Source of the DNA: Thermoguttaceae bacterium
GTDB lineage: Bacteria > Planctomycetota > Planctomycetia > Pirellulales > Thermoguttaceae
Reading direction: 5' to 3'
Assembly: GCA_029975295.1 (NCBI GenBank)
Contig: JARKPK010000083.1
Span: forward strand, 1-64,000
DNA length: 64,000 nucleotides
Shown piece by piece: positions 2,132-60,366 of this stretch. The translations under genes and the position numbers were made by a program. The stretch's first letter is position 1. Each line of letters opens with the position of its first letter. The notes under the pieces were generated by a model. It ran no database searches. It was not told where the DNA came from and worked only from the letters and a program-made list of their open reading frames with translations.

Positions 2132-3100
2132 ATGCGTCGGCGCCGGCCTGGGTTCACGTTGGTCGAGCTTCTGGTGGTGATTGCGATCATTGCCATTCTG
2201 ATTGCCCTGCTGCTGCCGGCGGTGCAGCAAGTGCGCGAGGCGGCCCGCCGCTCGCAATGCACCAACAATCTCAAGCAAATCAGCTTGGCGTCGATCAATC
2301 ACGCCGACACGTTCGGCTTTCTGCCCAGTGGCGGCTGGGGCCACCGTTGGATGGGCGATCCCGATCGCGGGGCCGGCCCTTCGCAGCCGGGCGGCTGGTG
2401 CTTCAGCATTTTGCCCTTTGTCGAACAAGACCAGCTTTACAAGATGGCCGCCGGAAAGCCCGACGCACAGAAGCGCACCATTTTACTTCAGGTGGCGGCC
2501 TCGCCGTTGCCGTTGTACAACTGCCCCTCGCGGCGCGGGGCGATTGTTCATCCCTACGTGGGGAGCGGGGGGTTCAGGAATCTTGATAACCCGCAGCGGT
2601 TCGCGCGCACCGACTACGCGGGCAATGCCGGGTTTGTCGGCGTCGGCGACGAGGCCGGGCCCGACAGCTATGGCGCGGCCGTCGGTTGGCGCGGTCAATT
2701 TCAAGACGGCGGCACAAAAGCCAACAACGGCGTGATCTATCAAAAGAGCGCAATTCGGCTGTCGAAGATTAACGATGGAGCCAGCAACACGTATTTAATC
2801 GGCGAGCGGTATATCGACCCCGATCACTACTACTCCGGCCAATCGCCTAACGACAACGAAGGGATGTACGTCGGGCACGACAACGACAATCTGAGCTACG
2901 CGGCCGAAGTTCCGCGGCAAGATCAGAAGGGGGCCACGCTCAACTGGATTTTCGGCAGTTGCCACGCCCGCGTCTTCCAAATGTCGCTCTGCGACGGTTC
3001 CGTGCATCCGATCCCGCACGAAATCGACTTGGCCGTCCACAAGGCGCTGGCCGGGCGCAACGACCGCGTGCACGTCGATATCAAGACCGTCCTCGATTAA
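2132..3100 (+). CDS. DUF1559 prepilin-like protein with H-X9-DG motif
   Basis: A member of the large planctomycete-specific family of type IV pilin-like/pseudopilin proteins (DUF1559), probably exposed at the cell envelope; its molecular role is unknown. The N-terminus has a basic leader, then a prepilin peptidase site (PGFTLVE, with Glu at +5) and a hydrophobic helix of about 20 residues ending in [15 protein letters not shown]. The body contains the family motif NNLKQISLA. Near the C-terminus, His is followed by nine residues and then Asp-Gly ([12 protein letters not shown]), the H-X9-DG signature. The ATG at 2132 is chosen over an in-frame GTG at 2117 because it has GGTGGGGG just upstream and gives the usual short Arg-rich leader. 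The protein is 322 aa. It stands alone and is probably monocistronic. Confidence 0.93.
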
Positions 3101-4616: not shown

Positions 4617-5093
4617 CGCCGCAAGCCGTGCTCAACCGGCCCTCGGGCGAGTTTCGCCCCTTGAGCCGCTGCGCGCGCACGGAGACGAACGGCGATCGCC
4701 CGCCCCGAGGACCAAGGGCATTCGCGCCGCGCGGAGCGATCGTCGCAGCCAAGGACGTCCGGCCCGACTGCACAACGTCAGCCGATCGTTCTCTGCGAAT
4801 CAACGGGCCCGTTCCGCGCCGAATCGGCGTCAAGGCCGATCTCAGCGACGGCACGGGCGCGAAGCGACTGTCGATCGCCGTAAACGCAACGCAGCCGGCA
4901 ATAGGCCTACTATCCGCTGGAACCGACCGCATGTCGGCCGGCCGCAGCGCATCGGCACCGAGAGCGTCAATCGGCGGGCGAATCGGGGCGGGCTATTCGC
5001 TCACCGCTGCCGGCAGTGATCAGGACGGCACGGCCGACAGGCGATGAGCCCAACGCGGAGGGTGTGTTGAGGGCGGCGTACGCGTCGGTTGAA
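4617..5093. other. Intergenic region
   Basis: This stretch lies between a plus-strand transferase and a convergent small lipoprotein gene. Open frames on both strands are continuous only because of high GC content and show no domain. I see no strong hairpin with a T-run. Confidence 0.5.
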
Positions 5094-6695: not shown

Positions 6696-6811
6696 CCCCG
6701 GAAAGCGCGGCGCTCGGCGTTGCCGCCGCTAGGGTAAAGAGCGGGCGCGTGTCGCTCGGCTCAACCGCGACCTTGGCAAGAACGGTTCGTCTGGGCGATA
6801 ATGGTCCGACC

Positions 6812-7723
6812 ATGAACGAACTGGTGTTCTTGAACGATCGTTGGATTCCGGCCGCCGAGGCCGGCGTGCCGTTGATCGACGGCGGCTTCGTGCAAGGGGC
6901 GACGGCAGCCGAACAACTGCGGACCTTCTCGGGCCGCATCTTCCACTTCGACGAGCATATCGATCGCCTCGATCGATCGCTCGCTGTGTTAGGGTTGACA
7001 CTGCCCTTGGCCCGCGACAAACTCCGTGCCGCTGCCGAGCGGCTGGTCGCCCACAACCACGCCTTGCTGGCCGAGGGCGACGATCTGGGGCTGTCGATCT
7101 TCGTTACTCCGGGCGATTATCCGGCCTACGCAACCCGCCGGGAAACGCGCCCCCTGTTGGGCATGCACACTTACCCGTTGCCCTTCCGGCTTTGGGCGGC
7201 CAAGTATGCCGAAGGCCAGCCTTTGGCCGTTTCGACCGTGCGGCAAGTGCCGCCGGAGTGCTGGCCGCCGCAGGTCAAATGCCGCAGTCGATTGCACTAC
7301 TACTTGGCCGATCGCGAGGCGGCCGCACGGTTTCCCGGCGCCCGCGCGCTGTTGCTTGATTTGCACGGTTGGGTCAGTGAAGCTTCGACGGCCAATGTCA
7401 TGGTCTTCCGCCGCAACGAAGGCCTTCTCTCGCCGCCGCTGGAGCGCGTGTTGCCGGGCGTTAGTTTGGCATTCACCTTCGAATTGGCCCGGCGAATCGG
7501 CTGGAACGCGCGACACCGCGACCTGACGGTGGACGATGTTGCCACGGCCGACGAGGTGCTGCTCTCAAGCACGCCGTTCTGCCTGTTGCCGGTAACTCAG
7601 TTCGAGGGCCGGCCGGTGGGCAGCGGATCGCCCGGCCCCGTCTTCTCGCAACTTCTCGGCGAGTGGAGCCGCTTGGTCGCCCTCGACATCGCCGCTCAGG
7701 CCTTGCGGTTTGTCGAACGCTAA
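6812..7723 (+). CDS. Class IV PLP aminotransferase (BCAT / aminodeoxychorismate lyase-like)
   Basis: A 303-residue cytosolic fold-type IV PLP enzyme of the family that includes branched-chain amino acid aminotransferase, D-amino acid aminotransferase and 4-amino-4-deoxychorismate lyase (PabC). The N-terminus has the usual FLNDRWIPAAEAGVPLIDGGFVQG. The Schiff-base lysine is Lys156 in VKCRSRLHYYLA. The phosphate-binding region GWVSEASTANVMVF and the C-terminal VDDVATADEVLLSSTP fit the family. Which of the three reactions it performs cannot be decided. Start ATG 6812 gives the normal family N-terminus. The 116-bp gap from the hydrolase leaves co-transcription possible. Confidence 0.85.
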   Translation: MNELVFLNDRWIPAAEAGVPLIDGGFVQGATAAEQLRTFSGRIFHFDEHIDRLDRSLAVLGLTLPLARDKLRAAAERLVAHNHALLAEGDDLGLSIFVTPGDYPAYATRRETRPLLGMHTYPLPFRLWAAKYAEGQPLAVSTVRQVPPECWPPQVKCRSRLHYYLADREAAARFPGARALLLDLHGWVSEASTANVMVFRRNEGLLSPPLERVLPGVSLAFTFELARRIGWNARHRDLTVDDVATADEVLLSSTPFCLLPVTQFEGRPVGSGSPGPVFSQLLGEWSRLVALDIAAQALRFVER

Positions 7724-15833: not shown

Positions 15834-17219
15834 ATGAAAACCCAAACCACTCTGTTGTTGGTTGACGACGACCGCCATGTTCTGGCCTCGATGGCCGATT
15901 GGCTTCGTGAGCAAGGCTATGCGACCGACACGGCATCGAACCTGGCCGACGGCAAGGCGGCCGTTGACCGCAAGAACTACGATGTCGCATTGGTCGATAT
16001 TCGGCTGGGCGAACACGACGGGTTCGAGTTGCTCGCTCATTGCCGTAGAGTTCGTCCCACGACCAGCGTGATCATGATCACCGGCTACGGCACGGTCGAA
16101 TCGGCCGTCGAGGCGATTCGCCTCGGCGCGTTCGATTTCCTCACCAAGCCGTTGATCGACGAAGAGTTGAAGATGGCCATCGAGCGCGCGCAAAGCCAGC
16201 GGCGCGTCATCGAGGAGAACCGCACTCTGAAGCAGCAGCTCGATCTCCGCTACGGCATGGAGAACGTGATCGGGCGCGACCACCGCATGCTGCGCATTTA
16301 CGATATGATCGACAGCGTGGCCGACACCCGCGCCACGGTGCTCATCACCGGTGAAAGCGGCACGGGCAAGTCGATGATCGCCCGAGCCATCCATCGGCGC
16401 AGCGGCCGCCGCGACAAAGCCTTCGTGGAAGTGGCCTGCGGCGCGTTGCCCGAAACGCTGTTGGAAAGCGAACTGTTCGGCCATGTGGCCGGCGCGTTCA
16501 CCGGAGCGGTCGGCGAAAAGATGGGCAAATTCCTTCAGGCCGACGGCGGCACGATCTTCCTCGACGAGATCGGCACGGCCAGTCCCGGCTTTCAAGTCAA
16601 GTTGCTGCGGGTGCTGCAAGACCTGGAATTCGAGCCGGTGGGCGGCACCAAAACCTATCGCATCGACACGCGCGTAATCTTGGCCACCAACGAAGACCTG
16701 GCGCAGAAGACCGCCGAAGGCCGATTTCGCCAAGACCTGTACTTCCGCATCAACGTGATCAACATCGAACTGCCGCCGCTGCGCGAACGGATTTCGGACA
16801 TCCCGCTGTTGGCCGAGCATTTCCTGCAACGCGTGACCGGCGAGACGGGCCGCAAGATCGAAGGCTTTTCGCCCGATGCCCTGACCGCCTTGCAACGCTA
16901 CCGCTGGCCCGGCAACGTCCGTGAGCTGCAAAACGTGATCGAGCGCGCCGTGCTGCTCGGGCGCGGCCCGAGAATCGTGCCCGAGGATTTCCCGCCCAAT
17001 GTCTTGACGGCGGCCCCGGTTGCTCTTGATACTACGGCCGGTTGCCTGAAAGACGCCCTTTCGGCGCCGGAACGGCAGATCATCCTGGAAGTGCTCGAAG
17101 CTCACCATTGGAATCGCCAAGCCACGGCCGCCGCGTTGGGCATCAATCGCACAACGCTTTACAAGAAGATGAAGCGGCTGGGCCTGGAAGAACCTCGCGG
17201 CGCCGCCGCTCGTTGCTAA
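15834..17219 (+). CDS. NtrC-family sigma-54-dependent response regulator
   Basis: A 461-residue activator with receiver (about 1-120), AAA+ (about 140-380) and Fis-type HTH (about 415-455) domains. The receiver shows LLVDDDRH, the phosphoacceptor in [13 protein letters not shown] and [25 protein letters not shown]. The AAA+ domain has Walker A GESGTGKS, the sigma-54 contact loop GAFTGA, Walker [11 protein letters not shown] and the arginine-finger region [11 protein letters not shown]. The C-terminus [16 protein letters not shown] is a Fis-like HTH. It would remodel RNA polymerase-sigma54 at -24/-12 promoters when phosphorylated. Its cognate kinase is not in the window. Confidence 0.97.
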
Positions 17220-17602
17220 GGCCGCACGGCTGGGCGCTCGTTAGCCCCGAAGCGATCGCCGCCGCCAGCGCGACAAGCGGCCGGGGCGCCAGCGGCGCGG
17301 GTCCGCGATTCTGTTCCGAGCGTTGAGCCCTTCCCGGTGCGTGGGCCATTTCGCGCGCAATCCGATCGGACGATCTTCGGGGCGCCGCGAAAGACAGAAC
17401 TCGATTCGGTCATCGGCATGCAAACCGCCCGAATGGCTCCGCCTGCAAACGGCCTCCTTTCTTGCGCAGCCCCGTTCCGCGATGCAACGGCGTTGGACGG
17501 ACCTTTTTAGAACGACCGGCCTTGCGCCGGTCGCCCCCGTTGCATCGCGTGCCTGAAAGCATCGCCGCAACAGAGTTTTTCTCATCGATCGGAGGATCAG
17601 TG
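17220..17602. other. Intergenic region with a nested inverted-repeat structure
   Basis: No gene is supported in this 383-bp spacer. It contains the structured element at 17478-17549, described separately, and the ribosome site GGAGG at 17591-17595 for the next gene. Confidence 0.6.
17478..17549 (+). promoter_or_regulatory. 72-nt nested stem structure (candidate leader RNA)
   Basis: Outer arms CGCGATGCAACGG (17478-17490) and CCGTTGCATCGCG (17537-17549) are perfectly complementary over 13 bp. Inside them an 8-bp hairpin, CGACCGGC-CTTGC-GCCGGTCG, spans 17513-17533. The unpaired side is 22 nt (with CTTTTT) on the left and 3 nt on the right. It ends 53 nt before the ATG of the isochorismatase-ThuA gene. 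No T-run follows, so it is unlikely to be a plain terminator. It could be a cis-regulatory RNA, a small RNA or a small palindromic element. I do not recognise it as a known riboswitch. Confidence 0.55.
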
Positions 17603-19354
17603 ATGATGCGTTTCCGATGGTTGTTCGCGGGCGGGCCGGCCGTGCTCGGGTATTTGCTCTGGTCGGCAGGTCCGGGGATCGGGCCATGGGCCGCGGCGGC
17701 TGATGAGCCGTCGGCTTCGCCGGCAGGCGCATCATCGAGTTCGCCGGGCGCGCTCGTCTTGCATTTGCGAGCGCGAACGCCGGCCGATGCGGCCGCGGCT
17801 CACGGATCGGAAGACTCATCGGCCGAGCCGAATCGGCCCGCCGCCAACGGCGCGGAATCGTCCCCGGGCGCAATCTCCCTCGACGAGGCCGCCGCGCGAT
17901 TGGTTTCGCCCGCGGCCAAAGTGGTCTTCGAGACCGTCGAGTGGCGCCCGAACGAAACGGCCGTCATCGTCTGCGACATGTGGGACGACCATTGGTGCAG
18001 CTCGGCGGCTGCGCGCGTGGCGGAGATGGCCCCGCACATGAATCGCTTTCTGACTCAGTTGCGCAACCGCGGCGTTTTGGTCGTCCATGCGCCCAGCGGC
18101 ACGATGGACCACTACAAAGATTGGCCGCAGCGACGAAGGACTTTGGACGCGCCAGCCGCCAAGCTCGACCCGCCCGCCCGCGGTTGGTGCAAACTCGATC
18201 CGCAGCGCGAGGCCCCGCTGCCGATCGACGATCGGGCCGGCGGCTGCGACACTCCGGGCTTGGAACAGCGACGGGCATGGCAGAAGCAGATCGAATCGCT
18301 GGAGATTGCTCCCGACGACGCGATCGGAGATGGAGCGGACATTCTCAACTTGCTCGAACACCGCGGCATTCGCAACGTGATGATCGTCGGCGTGCATACC
18401 AACATGTGCGTTTTAGGCCGCCCGTTCGGCATTCGGCAACTGGTCTATCAAGGCAAACGCGTGGCGCTGGTGCGCGACCTGACCGACGCCATGTACGACC
18501 CGGCCGCGGAGCCGAAGATCAGCCACTTCGGCGGCACGGCGCGGGTGATTGCACATATCGAACGCTACTGGTGCCCGACGATCGAAAGCAACGACATCCT
18601 CGGCGGCGCGCCGTTCCGCTTTCGCGGCGACCGCCGGCCGCGCGTCGTCTTTCTGATCAACGAAGACGAGTATCGAGCCGAAGAAACGGTGGCCCGCTGG
18701 GCGGCGGAGCTCGAGTTCCGCCGCGACTTCTGCACAACGGTGATTCAGGGGCGCGGCGCGTTTCGCCTCGACGGGATCGAAGCGTTGCAGCACGCCGACG
18801 CAACCGTCCTTTATGTCCGTCGCCGACCGATTCCGGCCGAGCAGCTCAACGTGCTTCGCCGTTACCTGGCCGACGGCCGACCTCTGCTGGCGCTGCGCAC
18901 CAGTTCGCATGCCTTCGCGGTTCGGGCCAACGTGCAACCGCCCGAGGGCGTGGAGAACTGGCCCGATTTCGACCGCGAAGTGCTTGGCTGCGAGTATCGC
19001 AATCACGCAGGCAACGCGTTGGGTTCCGACATCTTTCCGGCTGGCGCCATCGACGAACCGCTGCTGCACGGCGTTGAGCCGTTGCGTTGGCACAGCCGCG
19101 GCTCGCTCTACCTCAGCAAACTGCTCGATCCCAAGGCCCGCGTTCTGCTCGAAGGCAAGGCCGGCGAATGGACCGAGCCGGTTGCCTGGACGCGGACCTA
19201 TGGCCAAGCGAGGGTCTTTTACACTTCGTTGGGCCATCCCGACGATTTCGACCAGCCGCAGTTTCGGCAATTGCTCGACAACGCCCTGTGCTGGTTGTTG
19301 CAACACGGCCGTTTCGCACCGAGTCCCGCTCCGGCCGCGTCGCCCGGCGGTTGA
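17603..19354 (+). CDS. Isochorismatase-like cysteine hydrolase fused to a ThuA-like domain
   Basis: A 583-residue exported protein. The signal segment (MMRFRWLFAGGPAVLGYLLW) precedes an Ala/Ser/Pro linker to about residue 95. An isochorismatase/nicotinamidase-like domain follows at about 105-330: Asp in AVIVCDMWDDHWC (near 125) and the nucleophile Cys in VGVHTNMCVLGR (near 268) mark the active site; the third residue, Lys, is not obvious. Residues about 345-575 look ThuA-like (DJ-1/PfpI-type fold seen in trehalose-utilisation proteins), with VVFLINEDEYRAEETV, LRRYLADGRPLLALRTSSHAF and an FYTSLGHPDDF end. GGAGG at 17591-17595 fixes the start at 17603. Substrate unknown; the fusion suggests a secreted catabolic role. 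Confidence 0.82.
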   Translation: MMRFRWLFAGGPAVLGYLLWSAGPGIGPWAAAADEPSASPAGASSSSPGALVLHLRARTPADAAAAHGSEDSSAEPNRPAANGAESSPGAISLDEAAARLVSPAAKVVFETVEWRPNETAVIVCDMWDDHWCSSAAARVAEMAPHMNRFLTQLRNRGVLVVHAPSGTMDHYKDWPQRRRTLDAPAAKLDPPARGWCKLDPQREAPLPIDDRAGGCDTPGLEQRRAWQKQIESLEIAPDDAIGDGADILNLLEHRGIRNVMIVGVHTNMCVLGRPFGIRQLVYQGKRVALVRDLTDAMYDPAAEPKISHFGGTARVIAHIERYWCPTIESNDILGGAPFRFRGDRRPRVVFLINEDEYRAEETVARWAAELEFRRDFCTTVIQGRGAFRLDGIEALQHADATVLYVRRRPIPAEQLNVLRRYLADGRPLLALRTSSHAFAVRANVQPPEGVENWPDFDREVLGCEYRNHAGNALGSDIFPAGAIDEPLLHGVEPLRWHSRGSLYLSKLLDPKARVLLEGKAGEWTEPVAWTRTYGQARVFYTSLGHPDDFDQPQFRQLLDNALCWLLQHGRFAPSPAPAASPGG

Positions 19355-26452: not shown

Positions 26453-30286
<3,834 letters not shown>

Positions 30287-34018: not shown

Positions 34019-34690
34019 CGCGATCGAACGCGCCGTTTCAAAGTGCGAACCGTATAATGAAACTCCAACCCGGCGCCGATCGGTTCTCAGAAAAACAACG
34101 TCGAGAGACAAACCAACACAAGGCCGGATTTCGCCGGTCAAGTGTCTGCCGCACTCAACATTAACCTATCGGTGCATCAACGAGCCGTTCCGACCGAACG
34201 GTCCTCATTCGCTCCCCGCGAAATGTGAACAGCGCTCGGCCGAATCTTTGAACGCCGCCCAAGCCTTTTCACCCCGCTGCCAAGCCCAATGCGCAACGCT
34301 TTGCCAGGGCGCACACTCTGCGCCCGCCTCGCACCGCAGATCACTGCTACAACGCTGAGGATCGCCAGACTCGACCAATGGACCCCGGCGCTGCGGCCCA
34401 AGCGCAGATCACACTTATCGGACGCCCGTCCGCAGCCACACCAATCGCCCGAGCCTTGCCCACCAAAGCTTGCGTGTCGGCCGCCAAAGAATGAAACGGT
34501 AAGATTAGGAAAATGGGCATAGTTCGTCAAGGGTCTCGGCCCTATCCCCCCGATCGGTACCTATTAACAACAACTGCATCGGTGGTATAGGTCTTCGGCC
34601 CGGCAGGCGACACCCGCTGGCCCATTGTTCGCCCCCTGCACGATTGCGGGGCGCCCGCCCGGCGGCCGCCAGCGCCGCAGTGCCGCCGAA

Positions 34691-50041: not shown

Positions 50042-50231
50042 GCTAAAACGAAACGTCCGCCGGAGCGCACCGAGCGTTTTTCGCATTCCTTTCGAAAAGC
50101 GCCGGTTTTCGCAGGGCGCGCGCAACGCCCACGGCGCGCAACTGCTGATTGATGCTCCGAACGAGAATGCAATCAGACTGAGCAACGGTTGGCTGCCGCT
50201 CGCAGGCGGACGGAAAGAAAACGTTCCGCAA

Positions 50232-50867: not shown

Positions 50868-51264
50868 CGCTAACACTCCCGGGCATGCTCTTCGCCGCCG
50901 CGCGGCCATCGTGCCACAGAAAGACAATGCTGACAGGCCGGCCAACGGGAGGCCGAGGCGCGCCGACAGAACGCGGGCCGCGCCGGCCGATGCCTGTTCG
51001 AGGATCCACAATCCGGCCGCCCTTGAGCGGAACCGATGCGAACGGATTTCCCCACCAAGAAAGTTTCAGCAATCGGCCGATCCGTTGCAAGGGCCGTCTT
51101 CGACCAAGTTCGGCTTTTTCTCGGCCGAAAGCCGACCCTCTTGCCCCCTGGGGCCGGCAATGCAACGATGCTTATGGGCCCAGGGCGGGTGCGGCCGGAG
51201 TTGCAACGCCGCCGCAGCGTTGCTTGCCGTGCCCATCCACAAACATCCCGATCGATTCGCTTTG
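50868..51264. other. Divergent spacer with hairpin
   Basis: 397 bp between the methyltransferase and the metallophosphoesterase. It holds the 7-bp hairpin at 51203-51223. The open frame reaching back from the phosphoesterase has no believable sequence and is not annotated. Confidence 0.5.
51203..51223 (+). promoter_or_regulatory. 7-bp hairpin upstream of the metallophosphoesterase
   Basis: GCAACGC (51203-51209), a 7-nt loop and GCGTTGC (51217-51223) pair perfectly. It lies 41 nt upstream of the start codon, where it could be an operator or a leader hairpin. Confidence 0.4.
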
Positions 51265-59806: not shown

Positions 59807-60366
59807 CGGCATCTTGAAGATCGGCTCGGGGGCGCCCTTGACTGCTGATGGCCGACCGAAACCGAATCGCGCCGGCGCGCGTTCCGCCCGATCCGATCGC
59901 CGCGGCCAATTCTGTTCTCATCGCACAAAGCTTCGCTGCGCGGCTCGACAAGAACCCGTTCGAAGCGGTGCGGCTGAAGCGAGGCTCCCGTCCGGCAAGC
60001 CGGCGGCCCAACGCTCCGGCAGATGAATGCCTGTTGCGGCAGCCGGCTTTGCAGCAACTCGGCCTGCGGCGCGAATCGTTGGGGCTGCAACGCCGTTCTC
60101 TTGATTGCCGCGCGGCGAGAAGCTATGGTGCATCAGCAGTCTGATGCCGAACCGCCAACCAAGAGAGGCCGGCTTCCGCAGACACGACGCCGGCCATCAT
60201 CGACATTGCTTGGTTGCGCTGAGAAGCCCTTGCGCACAACCGTTCTTCGTGAAAAGAGGAACGCAACGACCGATTCCGATTCTTCTTTGCGTTGGGGCCT
60301 GCCCCGGGCGGGCCTTGTGCTGTCGGCGATTCGATCGCCCAAGAAAGGCGAACGGAGGGGGATGCA
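59807..60366. other. Intergenic region with two hairpins
   Basis: No gene is supported. GCATCAG-CAGT-CTGATGC (60130-60147) and GGCCGGC/GCCGGCC (60167-60173, 60189-60195) are perfect 7-bp inverted repeats in series. GGAGGGGG at 60353-60360 is the ribosome site of the next gene. Confidence 0.5.

Follow-up and report, generated by a model that had tools for sequence, protein, structure and literature searches.

The nested stems that precede the isochorismatase-ThuA gene are very probably an old, worn minus-strand copy of an IS630-type, RUP-like MITE of about 106 bp, and not a device for riboswitch-like gene control. They lie within a 383-nt gap that leads from an NtrC-type response regulator gene to the isochorismatase-ThuA gene, in the window that was analysed here, by which we mean the whole stretch of 64,000 nucleotides (64% GC; Table 1). 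Judged by protein relatives, the host would be a planctomycete. The two outer arms are 100% complementary over 13 nt and enclose 46 nt, within which an inner hairpin (17513-17520/17526-17533) is formed by 8 nt on each side, again 100% paired, around a loop of 5. From the nested stems it is 53 nt to the ATG at 17603, with a GGAGG at 17591-17595. An earlier note, made from the letters of this DNA, had described just such a perfect 13-bp stem around a perfect 8-bp hairpin at this distance from the start codon, and both coordinates and pairing proved correct on checking. It had gone on to make three guesses, namely a leader RNA, a small RNA or a small palindromic mobile element: it is the third that our analysis supports, in that the stems align in register with a palindromic repeat whose dispersed copies end in TA.

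Table 1. Position of the nested stems, their neighbouring genes and the further repeat copies in the window (bit scores and E-values refer to the repeat profile built from this genome).
Feature	Position	Strand	Remarks
NtrC-type response regulator gene, upstream	15834..17219	+	Pfam
Outer arm, right-hand half on the sense strand of the repeat family	17478..17490	-	CGCGATGCAACGG; counterpart of the right inner arm in the repeat; 13/14 identical to own-genome consensus
Stretch aligned to the repeat profile	17481..17556	-	model 11-86 of 106; 14.9 bits, E 0.01 in 864 kb, finding masked during profile building; outer ends of the repeat unrecognisable
Inner 8-bp hairpin	17513..17533	-	at the place of the core hairpin of the repeat (alignments)
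Outer arm, left-hand half on the sense strand of the repeat family	17537..17549	-	CCGTTGCATCGCG; left arm and core 27/33 identical to own-genome consensus
Isochorismatase-ThuA gene, downstream	17603..19354	+	Pfam: Isochorismatase and ThuA
Further repeat copy	4869..4972	-	38.6 bits, E 4e-10; outside predicted genes
Further repeat copy	34078..34180	+	30.8 bits, E 1e-7; outside predicted genes
Further repeat copy, partial	50147..50211	+	31.5 bits, E 7e-8; outside predicted genes
Further repeat copy	50908..51010	+	38.9 bits, E 3.5e-10; outside predicted genes
Possible further repeat copy, marginal	60145..60213	+	14.7 bits, E 0.012

The earlier note had also judged arms of this length to be unlikely by chance, which stands for the nested pair and falls for the 13-bp stem taken alone. 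Perfect 13-bp inverted repeats arose at 0.5 per 64 kb in order-3 Markov versions of the window, and three such stems are present in 464 kb of real sequence from this genome (window included; simulated rate 8.1 per Mb): a lone 13-bp stem is thus not remarkable. The nested combination of 13 and 8 bp appeared in 1 of 40 simulated windows (2.56 Mb) and in none of a further 11.05 Mb of simulated sequence, which amounts to one per 13.6 Mb. Another perfect 13-bp inverted repeat within 100 nt occurs in the window at 27806-27888, with 57 nt between its arms; it falls inside a long open frame of the minus strand (26453-29929) and is in line with chance. RNA-fold z-scores of the stretch with the nested stems are -2.1 for the plus strand and -4.9 for the minus strand. 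A DNA similarity search of the genome with the finding as query returned a single copy, the finding itself, and of 396 genomes in the order, this one alone contains the two arms together. With at most one mismatch allowed, the genome has 37 occurrences of a single arm and 12 of the reversed pattern, and the partner arm is absent at every examined single-arm site except the finding.

It is highly improbable that the stems serve the isochorismatase-ThuA gene or its neighbour as a dedicated riboswitch, leader RNA or small RNA. Such a reading could draw on the stable fold of both strands and on the leader position ahead of the ATG, and with riboswitches and other Rfam families the finding does share that it is a structured stretch in a 5' leader; unlike them, however, it has no Rfam match. 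The statement of the earlier note that no known riboswitch is matched was borne out by an Rfam search, which returned nothing either at gathering score or at E <= 5, and members of the repeat in related genomes were likewise unmatched at the element. The best relatives of the isochorismatase-ThuA protein are at most 56% identical to it, and the arms were present upstream of none of the 37 gene relatives examined (loci L038-L060 and L061-L074; the 37 include L050, which comes without upstream sequence), so that a leader RNA common to the gene family finds no support; mean fold scores of the leaders of these relatives were not consistently low. The likeness of the finding to a dispersed repeat, set out below, speaks against a dedicated RNA as well. 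Upstream of one distant relative of the gene (L066) there is a 14-bp plus 8-bp palindrome of different sequence, which extends from 125 to 59 nt before the chosen ThuA start and follows a terminator-like repeat; it is unrelated to the finding and presumably a known type of repeat. Two further candidates were rejected. In case of an intrinsic terminator, a T-run is absent after both stems, and the sole scan hit in 17150-17700 falls elsewhere. An integron attC site was considered because the arms contain GTTGCAT and GCAAC: its geometry, with 22 unpaired bases between arm and inner hairpin on one side and 3 on the other, makes it unlikely by comparison with the attC consensus.

The repeat family was reached by way of covariance models. 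A model of the finding alone (R2) gave matches at E <= 1 in 25 of 119 genomes of the taxonomic family, our own included, which is about chance level. One of them, in genome G015 (contig C16, 6766-6836; E 0.04), exhibits the same arms (ATGCAACG/CGTTGCAT), a similar core and a nearly equal length, and sits between tRNA genes of an 18-tRNA cluster. A second model, built from the finding together with the G015 element (R3), matched sites in G035 (48.9 bits) and G055 (45.9 bits) as well as two more sites in this genome (32.5 and 31.5 bits). As the G015 element had been picked for its likeness to the finding, the link was then tested from the other side. DNA searches with the G015 element matched 33 of the 119 family genomes at E <= 0.05 (own genome included), the weakest of which may be chance; in most genomes, up to seven candidates were scored each. 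In the G015 tRNA locus (L180, 5700-8316, 18 tRNA genes) the repeat copy proper spans 6749-6853 and begins one base after the end of tRNA-Ala (tgc).

Several matches were set aside on the way. The R2 match in G085 (E 1.6e-4) is located inside a 338-aa open frame, and in G031 and G106 the stems are broken; all three were treated as chance. R3 matches in G158 and G364, together with those of E > 0.003, were left out of membership, as were the matches in genus g21 (L302-L305), which fall in other repeats that do not exhibit TA ends. A palindrome on a viral contig (L142) scored weakly with both models (E 0.045 for R2 and 0.12 for R3) and was treated as chance too: at 2160-2240 of this IMG/VR contig the same 11 inner arm bases are found on both sides of a different middle, adjoining an HTH gene, which is probably a coincidence. 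The G015 element gave no match in a DNA search of phages and plasmids; in viral contigs the pattern of arm plus core was not found, and the pattern of the core was found in one contig. A further IMG/VR contig, filed as viral (L215), carries at 2959-3091 an element that agrees with the repeat in ends and core but measures 133 nt.

The repeat takes the form of palindromes about 106 nt long, with the ends YTATTGA...TCAATAR and the core GGCCGACCAACGGGAGGCCGG; beyond this genome, copies with lengths near 106 were found in 11 other genomes of the taxonomic family. TA is present at both ends in most aligned copies, and the AATA columns at the right end are invariant in 29/29. In the same alignment (A6), nine letters of the core are invariant in 29/29 copies, with arms that differ between genomes; the core hairpin itself has a GGCC/GGCC or GGGC/GCCC stem and the nearly invariant loop GACCAACGGGA. 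In G010 (L293-L298) and G044 (L299) there is also a form in which two cores stand face to face, as in REPINs, with stems of GGCC and GGGC.

In order to count the copies in this genome, as the earlier note had proposed, we used an iterated profile of the trimmed element, seeded from the genome's own copies and holding 54 of them, with the finding masked: at E < 1e-4, 864 kb yielded 47 copies, or 54 when the extra loci are counted, and reversed sequence yielded none. By extrapolation from these 47, the genome would hold about 270 copies, a figure that is to be read with the sampled contigs not being strictly random. None of the 47 copies lies mostly inside a predicted gene, versus 79.8% of 5,000 random places, as judged with a purpose-made gene caller that predicted 80% of the sequence as coding. 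The copies avoid gaps between convergent genes (2/44 copies vs 66/388 gaps, p 0.029, uncorrected) and favour divergent gaps (16/44 vs 86/388, p 0.041, uncorrected). No description of this repeat was recognised in searches of a library of open papers.

Comparison of the finding with the profile from its own genome gave 14.9 bits in structural register, next to 13.8 for the best hit in reversed sequence. When 30,000 randomised nested stems of the same design and composition were scored, none reached the score of the finding (15.1 when scored alone; best random stem 12.9). Identity to the own-genome consensus is 27/33 in the left arm and core and 13/14 in the right arm, and here it must be considered that the consensus could lean toward the finding, because the family was reached through likeness to it. 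With other profiles the finding was matched at E 0.86 (first sub-family) and E 0.14 (untrimmed own-genome profile); the all-family profile missed it at E < 10, it scores far below the other repeat copies, and as a lone query it found no repeat copy. Its terminal TA-TTGA...TCAA-TA ends are unrecognisable and the profile match spans model positions 11-86 only. Owing to this loss of recognisable ends, the finding is classed as a worn relic by descent and not as an intact element. It would thus be a far-diverged copy of the repeat whose ends are gone, and the support that the sequence lends to this membership is moderate.

A palindrome arisen by chance, with no kinship to the repeat family, is very unlikely as an explanation. 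What can be said for it is that perfect 13-bp stems are to be expected at about 8 per Mb and that membership is only moderately supported by sequence (E 0.01, and E 0.86 and 0.14 with the other profiles); against this, nested stems of such size turned up once in 13.6 Mb of simulated sequence, agreement with the consensus is in register, and not one of the 30,000 randomised nested stems scores as high.

We analysed whether the pairing of the repeat is maintained, decaying or co-opted using two alignments. Alignment A6 contains 29 copies from 11 genomes: 49 loci were examined, of which 16 lacked recognised ends and the core of one was too weak, and 27 of the 32 end-recognised copies were taken together with L180 and L188, whereby L261, L272, L289, L292 and L215 were dropped. 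In A6, 73.8% of cells are paired versus 68.3% in shuffles, and there are 79 double-change cells versus 55; both measures, as well as the covariation score, were above all 500 shuffles and all slid controls, although these excess figures are inflated to some degree, since copies of one genome are related. Two further measures did not rise above the shuffles, namely double-change pairs (18 vs 19.0) and further pair types (48 vs 51.9). Our reading of this pattern is that the founders were palindromes with different arms in different genomes. Alignment A5 contains 40 of the 41 listed copies of this genome together with the finding, the longest copy (in L319) having been dropped. Here, pairing is at 60.2% compared with 59.8% predicted from the columns alone (154 of 500 shuffles), with a covariation score at 69 of 500: pairing is what the columns predict, and hence the copies of this genome decay with no visible selection on pairing.

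Within A5, the finding stands out with a longest outer stem that reaches 13 bp, where the 40 other copies do not exceed 9 bp, and relative to the own-genome consensus it has two arm pairs that are changed on both sides with pairing retained. These two observations, together with the distance of 53 nt to the start codon, are what would be expected if the finding were a repeat relic of which the stem has been kept, whether as a hairpin that works in the 5' leader of isochorismatase-ThuA or as a site for a protein. Such co-option is nevertheless unlikely: with some 270 copies in which 60-64% of arm cells are paired, luck alone should, by rough estimate, yield about one stem of this kind, this would be the very stem to catch the eye of a reader, and covariation is absent among the copies of this genome. 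A wider proposal, which we regard as doubtful, combines two parts: that the core hairpin is a structure bound as RNA or single-stranded DNA and is kept between genera more strictly than the transposon arms, and that the isochorismatase-ThuA gene has recruited the copy at 17478-17549 as a hairpin of its leader, compensatory changes having preserved the stem once the transposon ends were gone.

Returning to the worn copy of a mobile repeat as the preferred reading, TA ends point to a transposase of the IS630 (Tc1/mariner-like) kind. The copies of the repeat end in TA, and therefore a transposase of IS630 type is suggested. A search with PF13358 gave matches in 11 of 12 genomes, at 20 loci. At one of these loci (L328, 954-2057 of contig C36 in G026) lies an IS630-type insertion sequence whose inverted repeats (TTGACCTTCGCAGAAGTAGTGA) are perfect over 22 bp, with TA outside; DDE_3 and winged-HTH models match here in two frames, with the HTH and DDE parts in different frames. 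The right end of a second one (L329, in G010) is TATTGACTCTCGCAGAAGTAGTGA. The L328 repeat is identical at 20 of 22 positions to the element ends in L263 (G055) and L287 (G033), compared with at most 15/22 for 20,000 random pieces; with other first ends it agrees at 9-17 of 22 positions, and with the consensus end of our genome at 13/22 (manual count). The one IS630-type match of this genome (L326) is situated at a contig edge, with no inverted repeats visible. A good link to a transposase thus exists in some genera; for this genome it is inferred. By its build, i.e. a length within 70-300 bp, terminal inverted repeats, TA ends and many intergenic copies, the repeat family would be an IS630-type MITE, with IS630 repeats shared in the relatives only.

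From these features a course of events can be proposed. The alignment of copies shows a founder whose imperfect terminal inverted repeats form one long stem, with the core hairpin placed about midway and a TA at either end. To judge from these ends, spread was most likely the work of an IS630-type transposase that used the inverted repeats in trans and inserted the copies at TA. Copies would settle in intergenic DNA and then decay, as is seen for this genome. At the finding, the outer ends would have worn away to leave the inner arms and the core hairpin, and it may have been by luck that this copy became the best-paired stem among those aligned. A regulatory role for the isochorismatase-ThuA gene would be unnecessary to explain the nested stems. 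What appeared to be a unique leader structure thereby becomes a worn member of a large family of palindromic repeats, for which there is a plausible transposase, and it follows as a caution that isolated nested stems in such genomes should not be taken for riboswitches. The repeat itself offers an unusually conserved internal hairpin with a testable role.

Amongst known systems, REP/REPIN elements with their RAYT resemble this repeat as short, dispersed extragenic palindromes, and the G010 form with its two inverted cores is REPIN-like; unlike them, the repeat ends in TA and its consensus, as read by eye, does not contain GTAG. That the family consists of REPs or REPINs spread by a RAYT (Y1 tyrosine transposase) is extremely improbable. 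Three Y1_Tnp (HUH) matches above the Pfam cut-off do exist in this genome (L163, L164 and L165), and two cores stand face to face in the G010 copies. However, the REP reading is disfavoured because the consensus lacks a GTAG tag at its stem base; in addition, the ends are TA, identity to IS630-type inverted repeats reaches 20/22 in some relatives, and the inverted repeats of at least 9 bp listed around the three Y1_Tnp genes differ from this repeat. GTAG and CGTC repeats have been reported from deep phyla including Planctomycetes, and the portion of that account accessible to us does not describe the present repeat (PMC3733652).

ERIC and Correia/NEMIS are short palindromic MITEs with TA termini, according to the available part of a study of RUP (PMC2229807); they and the repeat described here would be of the same broad kind, likened by their short palindromic build and TA termini. 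The RUP element of Streptococcus pneumoniae, as far as the same portion of that study extends, has 107 bp, 108 intergenic copies, TA ends and inverted repeats like those of IS630-Spn1 (PMC2229807). Both RUP, at about 107 bp, and our repeat thus occur in many, mainly intergenic copies and combine TA termini with short inverted repeats shared with an IS630-type element, this sharing being seen for our repeat in relatives only. The two differ in sequence and hosts, and the present repeat departs from RUP in its core hairpin with nearly invariant loop letters and in arms that differ between genomes while still pairing. On the strength of these likenesses, RUP is the closest analogue of the repeat in build and likely mechanism.
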